This document shows, piece by piece, positions 10,041 through 54,390 of a stretch of 64,000 nt of DNA. Origin of the DNA: Methylopila sp. M107 (lineage in GTDB: Bacteria > Pseudomonadota > Alphaproteobacteria > Rhizobiales > Methylopilaceae). The DNA lies in NCBI RefSeq assembly GCF_000384475.1, contig NZ_ARWB01000001.1:2522176-2586175 (forward strand), written 5' to 3'. Position numbers and translations under genes: made by a program. Every line of letters begins with the position of its first letter. The stretch's first letter is position 1. The notes under the pieces are model-generated. The model saw only the letters and a program-made list of their open reading frames with translations. It was not told the DNA's origin and searched no databases.

Positions 10041-10140
10041 ATTCCTTGACCCGACGTGAGTCTCGTGATTTGTTGTCCGAACCTCTTCCCGTCGGGAAGG
10101 CGTGATCGGTACCGGCCGGCCATGCGGGATGGGTGTAGCC

Positions 10141-45422: not shown

Positions 45423-45787
45423 GCCGGCCTCCCTTCGGCGCGCGCGCGGACCGGGCCCGGGAAGATCACGACCTTGTCGTCGCGCAGCATCGCCTCGAGG
45501 ATTTCGAGATCGACGGTCTGGCGACGTCGCGGCAAGCCAGCCTGCTCGGCCGCGGCGAGCGCCTCCTCGACTGTCGCGACCGTCGCGAGCGACTTCTCGG
45601 CGAGCTGACTGCTGCGCGCGTGGATCTCGATCGCCTCGAGCCGGATCGCCTCGATCTCCATCTGGGCGAGCGAGGTCGCGAGGTCGCGCATCTCCTCGAC
45701 CGAAATCGCCGTTCCCCCGATCGACTTGCGGGCGAGATCGCCGTGAAGCGCCGCGATGGCGTAGGACAGCGTGTTGGGCGCGCTCAT
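45419..45787 (-). CDS. Hypothetical early protein
   Basis: A 122-aa helical protein (MSAPNTLSYAIAALHGDLARKSIGGTAISVEEMRDLATSLAQMEIEAIRLEAIEI). Directly after MuB with a 4-bp overlap. Not recognised. Confidence 0.58.
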   Translation of the reverse strand: MSAPNTLSYAIAALHGDLARKSIGGTAISVEEMRDLATSLAQMEIEAIRLEAIEIHARSSQLAEKSLATVATVEEALAAAEQAGLPRRRQTVDLEILEAMLRDDKVVIFPGPVRARAEGRPA

Positions 45788-46881
45788 GGCCGGACCCCGA
45801 GCGTCTCGCCGCCGCGGTTCTCCCATGCCTCGCGGACATGTTTGGCCGACAACGTCTCGCCGGCGCCCACCGCGAGGATTATGCCGAGCTTGACCGTCTC
45901 GGTGATCTGACCGAGCGCGCCGGGCTTGTGGCCGATGGCCGACAGCAGCTTGCGGGCTTCGGGATCCGCCACGCCCCAGGCGTCGAGCGTCGCCGCGATG
46001 TCCCCGGCCTGCGGCTTCATGCGGCGCATGCGCTTGCCGATCCGACGGTGGATCTGACCGTAGCCGTCCCGCGGCTCCGCCCGACCAAAGCGCGAATAGA
46101 CTTCCTCGTTGCCAAGCAACGCGATGCCGCATCGATATTCGTCGTAGAAGAAGCGGAGCTGGTCGACCGCCTCGTCCTTAAGGTTCTGCGCCTCGTCTAT
46201 GATCAACAGTGTCTGGCGGCCGTTGCGCTTGATCTTCTGTCCGATCGCGCGGTCGAGCTTGTTCGCCGAGCGCTCGGAGACGTCGATCGCATGCGCAATC
46301 TCCTGCAGCATGCGGTGCGTGCCGGAGGTGGTCGGCCGCATGGTCGCCATGTAGACCCCGGGCCGCGAGCGGTAGGCTTTCGCGGTGGTGGTCTTGCCGA
46401 CGCCAGCGCCGAGCGTCACCACCACTATCTGCGGCATCTGCTGGGCGTAGAGCAGCGTGTCCGTCAGTTCGCGGGAGGTCGGCGTCTCAAAGTAACCCGG
46501 CTCTTCCGGCAGGCCGAAGACGCGATCGCGGACCTCCTCGAGGCTCGCGAGCCAGTTTTCGAGTTTGACGACCTGGTTGCCGTAGGAGCCGGTGTAGCTG
46601 CCGTCGAGCAGCGGCCCGAGCGTGCCCGGCGGAATGTCGGTGCGACGCGACAGCTCGGCGCGCGACCAGCCCTTCTCCTTGGCAATCGCCGAGGCGCGGC
46701 CGATCGCGGCGAGCCAGCGCTTGACCGTCTCTGGGGCGACCCGCGGCGGGGTCACCTGCGGCGGCGCCCATGGATCGGTCACCTGACCGTCTGTCGCGTA
46801 ACTGTTGGTGTCTGCGTTTTTCATGTCAGTTGCGGCTCTCAACTGTTGGAAACTGAAATCTTTTCGGCGCTCTGGGGTCAC
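45784..46881 (-). CDS. MuB-like target-selection ATPase
   Basis: A 365-aa AAA+ protein. An N-terminal helix-turn-helix (about 45-95: KEKGWSRAELSRRTDIPPGTLGPLLDG) precedes the ATPase. Walker A is GAGVGKTT (158-165), Walker B is LLIIDEAQNL (Asp229-Glu230). MuB coats target DNA and activates MuA, which follows the neighbouring-gene order A-B here. The start at 46881 overlaps the MuA stop by 4 bp; an ATG at 46824 is the alternative. Confidence 0.88.
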   Translation of the reverse strand: MTPERRKDFSFQQLRAATDMKNADTNSYATDGQVTDPWAPPQVTPPRVAPETVKRWLAAIGRASAIAKEKGWSRAELSRRTDIPPGTLGPLLDGSYTGSYGNQVVKLENWLASLEEVRDRVFGLPEEPGYFETPTSRELTDTLLYAQQMPQIVVVTLGAGVGKTTTAKAYRSRPGVYMATMRPTTSGTHRMLQEIAHAIDVSERSANKLDRAIGQKIKRNGRQTLLIIDEAQNLKDEAVDQLRFFYDEYRCGIALLGNEEVYSRFGRAEPRDGYGQIHRRIGKRMRRMKPQAGDIAATLDAWGVADPEARKLLSAIGHKPGALGQITETVKLGIILAVGAGETLSAKHVREAWENRGGETLGVRP

Positions 46882-48803
46882 TCGCGCTGAAATGGAAGGA
46901 TGTCGGCGTCGCTGATCCCGCGAAGGGCGCGGCCGAAGTTTTCAGCGCCCGACCAGTCCTCGGCGGAAACCTGCGGGACGCCGTTCGCGACCAGGCGCAC
47001 GACCTTCGAGGCCGGCTCCACGAACGGGGCGGGCGTCGGCAGCAGGTCTGCCGCCTGGCCGATCGTCATCCTCCGCTCGGCGTTCAGCATCTCGCGCAAG
47101 CCGCGGAACCACTGATTCCGGGCGCGCGCATGCGTCTGAGCGGCCGTCATGTCGGCGAAACCTTCGGCCTCGACACACGGCGCCTCGCAGATGAAGCGGC
47201 CGTCGATGGCGTAGACCGCGACCGGCTGCAGCAGATCGTCGGGGTCGAACCGCACCGTCACCTTGCGGCCGGCGACATCGCTCAGCTGCTCGGCCCAGTA
47301 CCGGTTGCCCGCGAGCTGGATTTCGCCTCTGCCCTTCCGCGCCGTGACGCCTTCCGCGGCCATCAGGAACATGCGGCGCTGGGCGGCCGTGGCGCGGCGC
47401 ACGACCACGCCGTCCTGCGCGACGCTTTGGCGGAACGTCTCCGCGAAGCTGCGCCCGGCGGCGGTCGCGCTGCGGCGGCCCGGGCGCTCGTTGTGGCGCC
47501 GGATTTCGCGCGCGACGACTGTCAGGAATGTTTCGAGCGGAACGGCGCTGGACGCGTAGTTGTCAGGCTTCTCCGTCGGCTTCTTGCCGGTGTATGCGCC
47601 GGCGAAGGTCGGATGCTTGGCGATTTCCTCGGCGAGGTCGCCGAAGGCGCGCTCGATCGGCTTGGCCTGCCCGTGATACGGGGTCGCCCAGCGGACCTCG
47701 ACGCCGAGCGCGGTGAGGATTCCGGCGGGCTCGTCGTCGCGGATCTTGAAGCGGTAGCGGGTCTTGGCGCCGCCGGTCAGCCACTTCGAGGCGAAGGAAC
47801 GGCCGTTGTCGAGCCAGCAGAGATCAGGGATCCCGTAGCTTTCGAACATGTCCGCGAACGCGTGGCGGACGCAGGTCCAGTTTTCGCTGCGGTCGACCCG
47901 GTGGCCGACGATCGCGCCCGAATAGAGATCCTGGATCGCGACCATCACGGGGCGCGCGACCGTCCCGTCGGGCCATTTCACGAAGACGTCGAAGCGGTGG
48001 CCGTCGGCGTTGACGGCCTGCATGGCGTGGAACACGGACCGGTCACGGGTCTGGTGTGGATAGAGCGCCCTGGCGGCGTCAGCGCCCTTGCGTGCGAGCG
48101 TCTGCACGGCGCGCGGGATTTCGCGCTCGAGGCGTCGCTGCATCGTCTTGGGCGAGGGGATCGGCGACCAGCCATGCTCGGCGGCGGCCTCCCGCATGCG
48201 CCGGTCGCAGCTTTCGAACACGCGCGACTCGGGCGCGAGCCAGAGCGCCTTCAGGAAGTCCCAGGCGCGCGGATCACAGGGCTCGGTTGCTGTCCGGCCG
48301 GTTCGGCGAGGCGCGATGGCGGCGAGGCGGTCGCACTTCGCCACGTCCTTGACGGCTTCGATCCAGTTGAAAACGGTTCGGACGCTGCAGCCGCATTTCT
48401 CCGCGACGAGCGAGACGGCCACGTTGCGCGTCATGTCCCTCGACAGGACGATGACGGTGTCGATCGCGGCGAGACGGCGACGCGCTTCCGCCTTTTGATC
48501 GTCCGAAAGCCGTTCGAAGCGCTCCCAGAGTGGGTTCGAAGCCCCTCTCGAAATGGGGTCGACCCCATTTTGATCTGGGGTGGACCCCACTTCCCGCGCA
48601 ACGGGTCTGGCCTCCGCTGGCAGGAGCGAGACGTGATACTCCCACGCGCCGCCCTCGCGGCCGACGCCGGGGCGCATGCGGGCGCGATCGGGATCCGCGC
48701 GCCATCCCTGGCGCAGGGCCATACGGTCCAGTTCGCGGCGATCGCGCGGTAACGCCGGATGGTTCAGCGCGAGAATGTCGGGAACGGCGAGCCACTCGCG
48801 CAT
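46878..48803 (-). CDS. MuA-like DDE transposase
   Basis: A 641-aa transposase. The N-terminal Mu-type winged helix (about 3-65: WLAVPDILALNHPALPRDRRELDRMALRQGW) is followed by a linker, then site-recognition helices (CGCSVRTVFNWIEAV) and the RNase H core. The catalytic triad is Asp267 (NADGH), Asp332 (LDNGRSF) and Glu384 (KPIERAF), close to D269/D336/E392 of MuA. The C-terminus has the basic beta-barrel region. It should bind the 18-bp repeats at both element ends. Confidence 0.92.
   Translation of the reverse strand: MREWLAVPDILALNHPALPRDRRELDRMALRQGWRADPDRARMRPGVGREGGAWEYHVSLLPAEARPVAREVGSTPDQNGVDPISRGASNPLWERFERLSDDQKAEARRRLAAIDTVIVLSRDMTRNVAVSLVAEKCGCSVRTVFNWIEAVKDVAKCDRLAAIAPRRTGRTATEPCDPRAWDFLKALWLAPESRVFESCDRRMREAAAEHGWSPIPSPKTMQRRLEREIPRAVQTLARKGADAARALYPHQTRDRSVFHAMQAVNADGHRFDVFVKWPDGTVARPVMVAIQDLYSGAIVGHRVDRSENWTCVRHAFADMFESYGIPDLCWLDNGRSFASKWLTGGAKTRYRFKIRDDEPAGILTALGVEVRWATPYHGQAKPIERAFGDLAEEIAKHPTFAGAYTGKKPTEKPDNYASSAVPLETFLTVVAREIRRHNERPGRRSATAAGRSFAETFRQSVAQDGVVVRRATAAQRRMFLMAAEGVTARKGRGEIQLAGNRYWAEQLSDVAGRKVTVRFDPDDLLQPVAVYAIDGRFICEAPCVEAEGFADMTAAQTHARARNQWFRGLREMLNAERRMTIGQAADLLPTPAPFVEPASKVVRLVANGVPQVSAEDWSGAENFGRALRGISDADILPFQRE
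48551..48589. repeat. Two tandem dyads inside the MuA linker
   Basis: AAATGGGGTCGACCCCATTT (48551-48570) is a perfect 20-bp palindrome. A second dyad, TGGGGT-GG-ACCCCA, is at 48576-48589. Their centres are 22 bp apart, the same spacing as the late-end transposase sites. They encode the non-conserved linker around residues 72-85. Confidence 0.6.
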
Positions 48804-51269: not shown

Positions 51270-51560
51270 CTAAAGCGCCTCGCCGATTGGACTCGGCGCC
51301 GAGGTCGATTCCTGGTTAGAACCGGAGGGCGAAGCTGGTTTTGAGGGATAGCGGCCCGGCCACAGGATCTGCGGCGAGACATTGAGGAATTGCGCGAGCG
51401 CGGCCTCTCCGGCCGGGTGACGCCGGTTCAGGGCGACGCGGCAAGCGCTTCCCTCGAGGCCGGCTTCTCGCGCGACTGCCGACAAAGTCGAACCCGCCCT
51501 GTGTACGGCCGCGCGGATCGCATGGCGATCCCAGCGCGGCCTCCTCTTGCCCCTCGACAC
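51270..51560 (-). CDS. Ner-family early regulator
   Basis: A 96-aa helix-turn-helix protein. WDRHAIRAAVHRAGSTLSAVAREAGLEGSACRVALNRRHPAGEAALAQFLNVSPQILWPGRY is the Ner/SfsB pattern. Mu Ner turns down the early and repressor promoters. It is the first gene of the leftward early operon, opposite the repressor. GTG start with GGGAG upstream. Confidence 0.85.
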   Translation of the reverse strand: MSRGKRRPRWDRHAIRAAVHRAGSTLSAVAREAGLEGSACRVALNRRHPAGEAALAQFLNVSPQILWPGRYPSKPASPSGSNQESTSAPSPIGEAL

Positions 51561-51690: not shown

Positions 51691-52356
51691 GTGGCTTTCT
51701 CGGACCGTATCGATGCGCTTATCGACGAGATCGCAGGTGGAAATCGCGCTGAGTTTGCAAGGATTTGTGGGATAAAGGACTCATCGGTCCGTCAGTACCA
51801 GACCGGCACCAAACCATCGTTCGACAATCTTATGGCCATCAGTGCGGCAACCCAAAGGAGTTTGGACTGGCTCGTCAAAGATGAAGAATCGTACAGTTCT
51901 GTGATCGTCGATGAGCATTCGGCTGAGTTCGCGCTCATCCCGCGCTATGACGTCCGTGCAAGCGCTGGTTTGGGCGCAATTGTGCCGTCTGAAGAGATTT
52001 CAGAGTTCCTCGCCTTTAAGCGAGAATGGCTTCGCAGGATCGGCGTAACACCAGAGTTCTCTGCTTTGGCGGAACTCGACGGTGACAGCATGGAGCCAAC
52101 CCTACCAGACGGGGCAATGATCCTGATCAACACAGCCGTCCGACAAGTAAAAAACGGCTTCATCTACGCCATAAGGCGGGGTGACGAATTGCTGGTGAAG
52201 CGAGTTCAGGTTCGGATGGACGGGACGGTGGTACTAATTCCTGACAATCCTCGCTATGAGAAAGAGGTTTTTACGCCTGATCAAGCTGTTGAACTACATG
52301 TAATCGGAATGGTTGTCTGGAACGCCTTCGCTCTTGTCGGAAAAGGACGACTGTGA
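51691..52356 (+). CDS. LexA/CI-type phage repressor with S24 autoprotease domain
   Basis: A 221-aa protein. The N-terminal helix-turn-helix (GGNRAEFARICGIKDSSVRQYQTGTKPSFDNLMAISAA) binds the operator. The C-terminal peptidase S24 shows the cleavage pair Ala92-Gly93 (RASAGLG), Ser133 (LDGDSMEPTLPDG) and Lys170 (ELLVKRVQV). This means induction by RecA after DNA damage, unlike Mu c. I chose the GTG at 51691, 8 bases after GAGG. Base composition is less GC-rich than the host. Confidence 0.83.
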   Translation: MAFSDRIDALIDEIAGGNRAEFARICGIKDSSVRQYQTGTKPSFDNLMAISAATQRSLDWLVKDEESYSSVIVDEHSAEFALIPRYDVRASAGLGAIVPSEEISEFLAFKREWLRRIGVTPEFSALAELDGDSMEPTLPDGAMILINTAVRQVKNGFIYAIRRGDELLVKRVQVRMDGTVVLIPDNPRYEKEVFTPDQAVELHVIGMVVWNAFALVGKGRL

Positions 52357-52802
52357 TCAATATTGTTCGAACCAACTTAGTTACGGTACTTATTTTTGCG
52401 CACAGCGCGACGGCTATCGCCGCGCCGCCTTCGGTCGACGAGCGCGCAGCGTCGCAAGCCTTGCTCCACGCGGTCTGGGCGGCGGAACCGCTGATCATGG
52501 CTAGCCTCCAGGTTCGTGATGACGCTGAAATGTCGGCGCAGTCGTTCCGGCTCGCGAGGGTGCTCGGCCAGAATCCGCCCGGTATGACGACCGTGATCAC
52601 CAACGGCTGCCTCATGGCGGTAAATGGACTGATGATCCTTTCTGGCTCACTCGCAACAGCAATGCGCAATGGATGGAACGCGCAGGCGCTCGTCACCGCG
52701 AAGACGGATTACCAGCGCTGGAAGCGGGACGTCGACAAGTGTGAGGTCGCCCTTAAAGTGAAGCGTCGTCGCGAGTTGGTCCTTCTCGACTTCGAGCAAT
52801 GA
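52353..52802 (+). CDS. Secreted hypothetical protein next to the repressor (cargo candidate 1)
   Basis: A 149-aa protein with a signal peptide (MINIVRTNLVTVLIFAHSATAIAA). The mature part has two Cys and a hydrophobic stretch (LMAVNGLMILSGSLATAM). The GTG overlaps the repressor stop (GTGA), so it should be expressed in the lysogen. A lysogenic conversion gene is a fair guess. Family unknown. Confidence 0.65.
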   Translation: MINIVRTNLVTVLIFAHSATAIAAPPSVDERAASQALLHAVWAAEPLIMASLQVRDDAEMSAQSFRLARVLGQNPPGMTTVITNGCLMAVNGLMILSGSLATAMRNGWNAQALVTAKTDYQRWKRDVDKCEVALKVKRRRELVLLDFEQ

Positions 52803-52808
52803 CGATTA

Positions 52809-52859
52809 GGCATGGTCGTCTGGAACGCCTTCGCTTTGATCGGGAAGGGTCGAGTATGA
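52809..52859 (+). pseudogene. Fossil 3' end of a second repressor gene
   Basis: Seventeen codons reading GMVVWNAFALIGKGRV-stop match the last 17 codons of the intact repressor (52306-52356, GMVVWNAFALVGKGRL-stop). Many differences are at third positions, so this is a related allele, not a recent copy. The preceding frame is blocked by a stop. Its TGA overlaps the next gene's ATG. Confidence 0.85.
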
Positions 52860-53278
52860 ACGTCCGTCTGCTCGCTGTTTTTTGTCTGGTAGCAACGCCT
52901 TCTGCAGCGCAACAGATTGAGGATGTAGCGCCATTAGGCTGCCCATCTCCCGACCAATTCTGCAAAAGTTCGTCAGCCAGCCTGCGCTTAGCCATCCCGA
53001 AGGCGTTCAAACGCGATTACCAGGCTCAACGAAACGTATCGTTCTGTCTGGTCGACGGATGCGACGGCGCTATCCAACCGAACCGAATGCTCGGCTGCGC
53101 ATGGCGTCTCGTCATCCTTGCTAGCGGCAGTAGCAAGGTCGATAGCACCGATACTGGTTTTCTTGATGCCTACTGCGCCTCCCGCCTTTCACCGACCGAA
53201 AAAGCAGCGGCTGATGCGCAAGCGAGCGAACTATTCAAGAAGGTTTATGATCGTCCGATGCGGCGTCTGCCTTGGTAG
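52856..53278 (+). CDS. Secreted Cys-rich hypothetical protein (cargo candidate 2)
   Basis: A 140-aa protein with a signal peptide (MNVRLLAVFCLVATPSAAQ). The mature part has about six Cys (GCPSPDQFC, FCLVDGCDG, MLGCAW, AYC), pointing to disulfides in the periplasm or outside. The ATG at 52856 has GGGAAGGG upstream and overlaps the fossil repressor stop. Unrelated to candidate 1 by eye. Function unknown. Confidence 0.68.
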   Translation: MNVRLLAVFCLVATPSAAQQIEDVAPLGCPSPDQFCKSSSASLRLAIPKAFKRDYQAQRNVSFCLVDGCDGAIQPNRMLGCAWRLVILASGSSKVDSTDTGFLDAYCASRLSPTEKAAADAQASELFKKVYDRPMRRLPW

Positions 53279-53581
53279 GATCGGCGCGCGTCAAAAGCTT
53301 TCCGGCTCCCGTGAAACTCCCCTTATTCATCGCCTGCGGCCGGCGTCTGAGCTGGCACGGAAGTGTTGAGGACTGAGGCGTATTGCCTCGCGGCCGCGCC
53401 AAGATGAACGAATTGCGGCGAAGAGCCTCTACGACGCTGCCCTGGCCCGCCGGTTGCCCCTTGTGCGCCCGCATCCGTGCAGTTTCCTCGAAGGCTCTCG
53501 AAGCTCAGTTATGAGGCGCTCGGCGGGCTCTCGAAGGCCTTCCGAAGCTCTCTCGACGTCTCGGCTGGGGGTGGGCGCTCA
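53279..53581. other. Gene-free phage end region
   Basis: No convincing gene. It contains several TCGAAG-type short repeats (53488-53555) just inside the transposase sites. A 36-codon frame at 53404 is probably chance. Confidence 0.45.
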
Positions 53582-53748
53582 CTGCAGTTTCAAGTGTCCA
53601 GATCGGCCGCTTACTGCAGTTTCAATTGTCTAAGCCCGCCGCTGACCTAGACACCCTTTAGCGCCGCGCACGTCCTCAGAACTCCGGCATCTCCCGCGCA
53701 ATACCGCCTAATCCCGGTTAATCCCGCCTACTGCAGTTTCAAGTGTCC
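53582..53748 (-). repeat. Transposase-binding sites at the early end
   Basis: CTGCAGTTTCAAGTGTCC at 53582-53599 and 53731-53748, plus a variant with two changes at 53614-53631. The outer copy is 7 bp from the terminus. The inner pair lies about 125-175 bp inside. This resembles the L1, L2, L3 layout of the Mu left end. Confidence 0.85.
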
Positions 53749-53755
53749 GCCGACA

Positions 53756-54390
53756 ATGGGGGCGGCGCCAGCGGCTGGAAGCACCGGAGCTTCGGCCGCG
53801 GGACGTCGGACTGCGGCGTCGGGCAAGATGCGCGGTCTCGACCGCTTCGCCTTCGGGCTTGGCGGGTGAGATCGATGAGATCGCCCGGCGTGAAACTGGC
53901 CGCCCGCCCTGTGAAGACGGGGCCGCCCTTCAGTGGGCCGTAACGCGACGGGAGGCGAAACTGCCGGGCCGACGTCCCGAAAGGATGTCCGGACCCGCCA
54001 AGTCGCCGCAATGGGACCGGAACCCGGGTTAGTCCCCGGACCGACGGTTCGCCCGACGTCGGAGCGCGGCTTCTGCAGCCGATGCGAAACGCCGCGCGCG
54101 GGGCGCCGGGCGACCGGTTATCCGAAAACTACGGAATGAGCGGTGGCCTGGCGTTCCGCGCCTTCCTGCTTCTCGCATGCGCTGTCTGACATCGCAGGCC
54201 ATGACGACGACGGCGAGATCGAGCCGGCGAACGAAAAGGCGCGCCTTCTTCCTTGTCCCGGCCCCAGAGCCGGGACTCAGACGCGCCGAGCGTGCGGAAG
54301 ACGCATCACGCTCCGTGAGCGCCCCATCCGGAATGCGCCACGGCTCTGGGTCCCGGCTCAGGGCCTGGACAAGAGACGAGATGGCGCCCT
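53756..54390. other. Host sequence after the prophage without a convincing gene
   Basis: Starts with the right-hand ATGGG target copy. Several open frames exist on both strands but all have Arg/Pro/Gly-rich shadow composition. At 54247-54376 there is a diverged class A palindromic repeat (CCTTGTCCCGG.. facing ..CTGGACAAG). Confidence 0.5.

Follow-up and report, generated by a model that had tools for sequence, protein, structure and literature searches.

Temperate phages seldom show how their accessory genes were acquired, since the joins that bring them in usually leave no mark. In the stretch of DNA analysed here (64,000 nucleotides, referred to as the window), the end of a phage repressor gene recurs a short distance behind the intact gene, and each of the two copies is followed directly by a gene for a small, probably exported protein. 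The questions that this locus raises are where the second copy came from, what it says about the history of the genes around it, and why it was kept.

The locus lies within a Mu-like transposable prophage (10134-53755), whose termini, both read inwards, are TGTNGNCGGACACTTGAAACTGCAG and which is flanked by a 5-bp target duplication, ATGGG (10129-10133 and 53756-53760). A search with the end motif returned five repeat matches where 0.12 would be expected by chance, and we infer that these repeats are transposase-binding sites. In keeping with a Mu-like phage, the prophage also encodes a DDE transposase, MuA (46878-48803, minus strand; Pfam DDE_2 at E 9e-53, HTH_Tnp_Mu_2 and Mu-transpos_C), and a MuB transposition protein (45784-46881, minus strand; Phage-MuB_C, E 2e-21), and near its left end there is a repressor gene that is divergent from a winged-HTH gene (51270-51560, minus strand; HTH_35, E 2e-22), which we take from its position to be Ner-like. 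The lysogeny repressor (51691-52356, plus strand) combines an HTH with an S24 peptidase-like domain (Peptidase_S24, E 2e-21; HTH_3; phrog_4, E 8e-46). Its gene reads towards the phage left end, and behind it on the same plus strand are cargo 1 (52353-52802), the repeated repressor tail, here called the stub (52809-52859), and cargo 2 (52856-53278). Of the three end-motif copies on the left-end side, two lie wholly within the left-end DNA (53583-53755). The G+C content of the repressor and cargo region (51691-53278) is 0.53-0.60, below the 0.67 of the prophage.

A sequence-only reading of this DNA had reported that the last 17 codons of the repressor gene recur 503 bp downstream, in frame and with a stop. 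The recurrence, the 503-nt spacing from start to start and the stop are as reported, and the length is corrected to 16 codons plus the stop: the intact tail (52306-52356) codes for GMVVWNAFALVGKGRL and the stub for GMVVWNAFALIGKGRV. The two are identical at 41 of 51 bases, while the next best ungapped match to the tail on either strand of the 64-kb window reaches 28 of 51, and chance is therefore rejected as the origin of the repeat. The same reading had noted that each stop overlaps the start of the gene behind it, and this is borne out, with the TGA of the intact repressor overlapping the GTG of cargo 1 as GTGA and the TGA of the stub overlapping the ATG of cargo 2 as ATGA (at 52856), by four bases. 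The stub begins 6 nt past the stop of cargo 1 and in the cargo 1 reading frame (TGA CGA TTA GGC).

Whether the stub derives from the repressor in front of it can be judged from the pattern of substitutions, with the repressor tail of the prophage in genome G142, the nearest relative, as a third member of the comparison. The base differences over the tail number 10 between the intact tail and the stub, 12 between the intact tail and G142, and 13 between the stub and G142, and they fall mostly at third codon positions (3, 0 and 7 at the first, second and third positions for the intact tail and the stub). The corresponding amino-acid changes number 2, 1 and 3, whereas in a neutral simulation ten random changes altered a mean of 6.4 residues and altered two or fewer with P = 0.0004. 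Because there are so few amino-acid changes relative to neutral expectation and the divergence resembles that from G142, the stub is probably the tail of a third repressor allele, taken from a repressor different from the intact one, and most of its divergence would thus have taken place while it was still part of a functional repressor gene, not following a duplication. A decayed duplicate of the phage's own tail is disfavoured by the same pattern (2 changes versus about 6). More generally, a tandem duplication within one phage, in which the 3' end of the repressor gene was copied with or without a gene behind it and then drifted, would account for the two tails being alike in length and in ending with GKGR, a type otherwise found only in G142, and for their position on one strand and possibly in one operon. 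Yet we regard such a duplication as improbable, given that the differences between the tails are nearly all synonymous or conservative and are about as many as those between phages whose repressors are 68% identical, and that cargo 1 and cargo 2 have no similarity to each other by BLAST (E 3.2).

G142 belongs to the same genus and supplies the one close relative available for comparison; a relative of the repressor at E 1e-25 or better is present in 3 of the 13 genomes of the genus, the window's own genome included. The G142 prophage is largely collinear with that of the window, with some ORFs unmatched, and the two are 68% identical in MuA, 60% in MuB and 67-68% in the repressor. A repressor swap relative to G142 is not supported, as repressor and MuA diverge alike. 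In G142 the repressor stop overlaps the ATG of a cargo 1 homologue (33% identical) as ATGA, and an end repeat lies about 700 nt past the repressor stop. A DNA search with 52803-53755 matched the G142 left end (53583-53755, 173 nt, 69% identity) and the G142 repressor tail, with no match to cargo 2 in G142 beyond chance level. A protein search with cargo 2 likewise did not match G142, and the window stretch between the stub and the left end is unmatched there. The G142 prophage matches in the repressor, MuA and the left end but has no stub and no cargo 2, which makes cargo 1 the likely resident gene and the stub with cargo 2 the likely newcomer. The stub and cargo 2 could be extra relative to G142 or else have been lost from it, the direction of the event, gain or loss, being read from this one relative.

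Stubs of this kind are rare. A total of 319 loci was reduced to 223 distinct repressor-like loci by merging those with identical last 240 nt, a set that retains near copies and distant S24 proteins, and 209 of these have at least 120 nt downstream. When each downstream stop-anchored 16-mer was scored against the tail of its own locus, a scan that misses shorter stubs, the window's phage scored 80 and locus L147 (IMGVR_UViG_3300048575_000378) scored 43, against 21 for the next locus and a maximum of 26 in the reverse-strand control. With a family profile L147 scored 29.0, the next locus 18.4 and the control at most 17.3, and the window's stub is outside the eight top-listed scores because it is without the first half of the profile. 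Stubs of a foreign repressor tail were hence found in 2 of 209 loci, the window's phage and L147. The latter, which also has a divergent HTH_35 gene, carries in order the tail DQMAVIGLVRWCGKLI, an 86-aa ORF, the stub DRLRVLGRVRWYGLAI with its stop, and a membrane-protein-like ORF. Its stub has 8 of 16 residues in common with its own repressor tail, which again argues against duplication, and it is closer to the family consensus GRV than the intact tail of L147 is. The second cargo of L147 had no match in phages and two weak partial matches in 376 genomes.

The suggestion, made from the sequence alone, that two repressor-cargo units of different phages are now stacked is well supported by the third-allele stub, by G142, which is without the stub and cargo 2, by the relatives of cargo 2 that follow other repressors, and by the parallel in L147. 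We propose, and consider it likely, that the arrangement arose when a single illegitimate crossover joined two sibling Mu-like phages in the region from the repressor to the left end, which would be an accessory-gene slot read in the repressor direction. Phage 1 would have contributed the part from MuA through the repressor to cargo 1, with the break just behind the cargo 1 stop, and phage 2 a part that starts inside its repressor tail and continues with cargo 2 and the left end. The stub would have been kept for the ribosome-binding site of cargo 2, because the last repressor codons would hold both the Shine-Dalgarno sequence and the overlapping start of the next cargo, so that a cargo gene would have to travel with the repressor tail in order to be translated. 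Both cargos would then be expressed from the repressor transcript while the prophage is silent, and their products would be exported and help the lysogen. The earlier proposal that the conserved 3' end of the repressor gene is itself the site of recombination is not supported to the same degree: a tail-to-tail exchange would leave no remnant, and the join here runs from behind the cargo 1 stop to the inside of the tail of the other repressor. A foreign repressor tail in this position is a mark that points to the kind of partner phage and to the point of the join.

An intact repressor that ends in the stub tail and is followed by cargo 2 was not present among the matches listed for viral contigs, annotated phages and genomes. 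Among 370 loci, the window's phage and G142 alone have the tail type WNAFALxGKGR. In viral contigs a search by the tail motif gave nine stretches, within a repressor only in the window's own phage (by eye), and the repressor relatives in annotated phages (468 records) are all below 60% identity among the matches listed.

The stub had been called a fossil, and this is a part of the sequence-only reading that we would revise, since the stub is probably not dead and supplies the likely ribosome-binding site of cargo 2. The ribosome-binding site of cargo 1 is likely to be GGAAAAGGA in the intact tail, and that of cargo 2 GGGAAGGG in the stub; the pairing energies with the 16S end are -5.3 kcal/mol for cargo 1 and -7.0 kcal/mol for cargo 2. 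Against a Shine-Dalgarno background with a mean of -3.3 and a 5th percentile of -7.1 kcal/mol, the cargo 1 value is not outstanding by itself. Such pairing of the stub with the 16S end would account for the survival of a join placed within the tail, and it suggests why this join point is tolerated. Across the surveyed loci, the repressor tail pairs with 16S at -6.55 kcal/mol where the start of the next ORF overlaps the repressor stop (n = 22), at -5.13 where the start is near (n = 60) and at -3.93 otherwise (n = 121); relative to the last group P is 2e-4 for overlapping and 8e-4 for near starts, and by 60% clusters P is 0.003 (17 overlapping versus 81) and 0.010, respectively. In L153, L163, L216 and L262 the last repressor codons contain purine-rich Shine-Dalgarno-like runs (for example GGGAGGAG), with the cargo start directly after. 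The ribosome-site argument does not extend to L147, where the gene after the stub has a ribosome-binding-like sequence of its own past the stub and where the first ORF is free of overlap.

A related reading is that the stub, whatever its origin, is a functional short leader peptide (MVVWNAFALIGKGRV) selected to couple the translation of cargo 2. It has in its favour an in-frame ATG at 52812, a stop that overlaps the cargo 2 start and a coding-like substitution pattern. We think it unlikely all the same, as the start at 52812 has a weak ribosome-binding match (-2.4 kcal/mol) and coupling needs no likeness to a repressor tail at the level of the peptide. It can be partly true alongside the others, origin and present use being separate matters. 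A further ATG, at 52799, is in the cargo 2 frame and also overlaps the cargo 1 stop; the frame from it passes through the stub into cargo 2 (52799-52858) and would add 19 residues, and its Shine-Dalgarno match is weak (-2.2 versus -7.0 kcal/mol for the start at 52856).

Relatives of cargo 1 were found among 397 genomes of the order in its own genome and three others (G142 at E 2e-14 and two others at E 2e-4 and 7e-4), in viral contigs only in the window's own phage, and in annotated phages not at all. Relatives of cargo 2 occur in 34 of the 397 genomes, its own included, in 37 viral contigs, one of them the window's own phage, and among annotated phages only in Rhizobium phage RR1-A (two records). 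A search of related phages for a repressor directly ahead of cargo 2 had been suggested, and cargo 2 relatives do follow other S24 repressors, on the same strand, in 11 of the 36 other viral contigs (L321, L322, L328, L333, L339, L344, L346, L351, L352, L355 and L356); the repressor and cargo matches there lie 57-473 nt apart, and the cargo starts range from 4 nt ahead of the repressor stop to about 71 nt past it. All ten of the upstream repressors that were scanned have a Peptidase_S24 domain, and in the eleventh contig, L346, the region is almost the same as in L344 (1173 of 1203 positions). Among the repressor tails ahead of cargo 2 relatives, two or more dissimilar types can be told apart, with GRVMWFGRSI and VLTTNELFGV as examples, and Kaistia dalseonensis also has a cargo-2-like gene behind a repressor. 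A single gene order with the same remnant in all relatives, which was to count against swapping, was not seen, G142 being the one close relative. In L354 the repressor match is 2.3 kb from the cargo 2 relative and in L325 it is convergent with it. In L042 and L024 a cargo-2-like gene and an S24-repressor-like ORF of the other strand seem, by eye, to converge tail to tail.

Neighbours were viewed in 22 of the other 25 contigs, and in several the cargo 2 relative appears, by eye, to be surrounded by head or tail genes and to be encoded on the opposite strand; in L330, L335, L336, L338, L343, L350 and L353 it is apparently between head-gene-like ORFs, also on the opposite strand and by eye. The cargo 2 family thus uses several phage sites, and cargo 2 might have been inserted by an unrelated route as an ordinary moron, with the stub as an older scar. 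This we consider very improbable, because the overlap of the stub stop with the cargo 2 start is the same as that of the repressor stop with the cargo start in both the window and G142, which makes a joint arrival of the stub and cargo 2 probable, and because cargo 2 is flanked by no terminator and by no promoter beyond chance; the one promoter-like site, at 52732, is not above the chance mean of 0.9 in a scan that covered sigma-70-like consensus sequences only. Of the features ascribed to morons in the passages of PMC4378225 on which we draw, cargo 2 thus shows no promoter and terminator of its own, while it is, as described there, absent between its neighbours in a close relative, G142 being without the stub and cargo 2. 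For want of its own promoter and terminator we call it moron-like and do not file it as a classical moron. Its G+C content is 0.556 and that of the prophage 0.673, but the repressor itself is at 0.526. Cargo 1, which adjoins and overlaps the repressor gene on the same strand, has the arrangement of a rex/hex-type gene.

Cargo 1 (149 aa) has a hydrophobic N-terminus, belongs to no family and gave a poor, low-confidence model that is all helical (pLDDT 69). Cargo 2 (140 aa; phrog_5882) has an N-terminus that is signal-peptide-like by eye and a model of five helices (pLDDT 90.6), and matched no Pfam family. A structure search with cargo 2 gave no match at E 0.001 in the PDB or BFVD; the top three PDB matches, all weak, are two Sel1/SLR proteins and the AlgKX complex (E 0.68-0.89), and the top three in BFVD are Sel1 (E 0.11-0.51, also weak). 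Neither cargo matched a defence family in PADLOC. Both are probably exported, and from their position behind the repressor and by analogy with rex, hex and Fc02 (see below) we infer that they may help to protect the lysogen, with the exclusion of other phages as the likeliest means.

The place that they occupy may be used widely. An ORF with a hydrophobic N-terminus lies behind the repressor in 69 of 203 loci, compared with 47 of 835 other ORFs (Fisher P 2e-24, with loci that are not independent), and in 35 of 121 when the first locus per 60% cluster is taken. This count covered ORFs of at least 60 codons that start within a range from 8 nt ahead of the repressor stop to about 120 nt past it, in the 203 loci with at least 250 nt downstream, and used a simple hydrophobicity rule and not a signal-peptide predictor. 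The control was drawn from the same loci, as other ORFs of 120 codons or more, and supersedes an earlier reverse-strand control (10 of 203). Cargo that looks exported forms at least three groups that are shared by repressors with 34-50% identity in their least alike pairs. The slot behind Mu-like repressors looks like a general place for accessory genes with exported-looking products, and like a place to seek new lysogen-protecting exported proteins. More tentatively, the 3' end of Mu-like repressor genes may be a portable translation-start module, in which codons such as those for GKGR and GRR would spell the ribosome site and overlapping start of the cargo, so that cargo would move with the tail, cassettes would pile up before the left end, and stubs would record their order of arrival.

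Parts of this arrangement have counterparts in known systems. Contact-dependent inhibition loci contain displaced orphan modules, in which the older of two variable modules lies behind the newer and retains a stub of the conserved gene upstream. The likeness lies in the retained stub of a conserved upstream gene; here the partner is a phage repressor, and no toxin/immunity pair is known. In lambdoid phages, the lambda cI-rexA-rexB and phage 434 cI-hex arrangements place accessory exclusion genes on the repressor message, and the hex reading frame apparently overlaps that of the repressor in part (PMC3564112). The window shares with them a same-strand gene immediately after the repressor (PMC3564112), but they are integrase-type phages with characterised proteins, whereas here the phages are Mu-like, the proteins are probably exported and a stub lies between two cargos. 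The transposable Pseudomonas phage Fc02 has an accessory gene, e4, behind repc and within the transcribed region of the lysogen, and e4 is likewise missing from some relatives (PMC9936078) and, like the cargos here, has no assigned function. The passages of that report on which we draw mention no stub or stacked cassettes. Pseudomonas Mu-like phages carry morons in regions of genomic plasticity, the acquisition of which is called mysterious (PMC4378225). These are similarly short variable genes that differ between close relatives (PMC4378225); in contrast, the cargo gene here brings a piece of a foreign repressor that records the join. Cargo stacking marked by a stub was not seen in the open-access literature searched, mostly as abstracts and passages. 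To these systems the present analysis adds the join marked by a foreign tail, its one independent parallel in L147, and the apparent double use of the tail.

Two further observations concern genes behind other repressors. In L153 and L216, whose repressors are 34% alike, the first downstream ORFs differ and the second ORF is 62% identical, as if the first cargo alone had been exchanged, and no stub scored there. The genome of the window itself has a second S24 repressor-like gene (locus L003), which is 45% identical, and one base past its stop begins a 106-aa membrane-protein-like ORF of no family (2156-2473 of L003, near position 2433792 of contig C1 of that genome).
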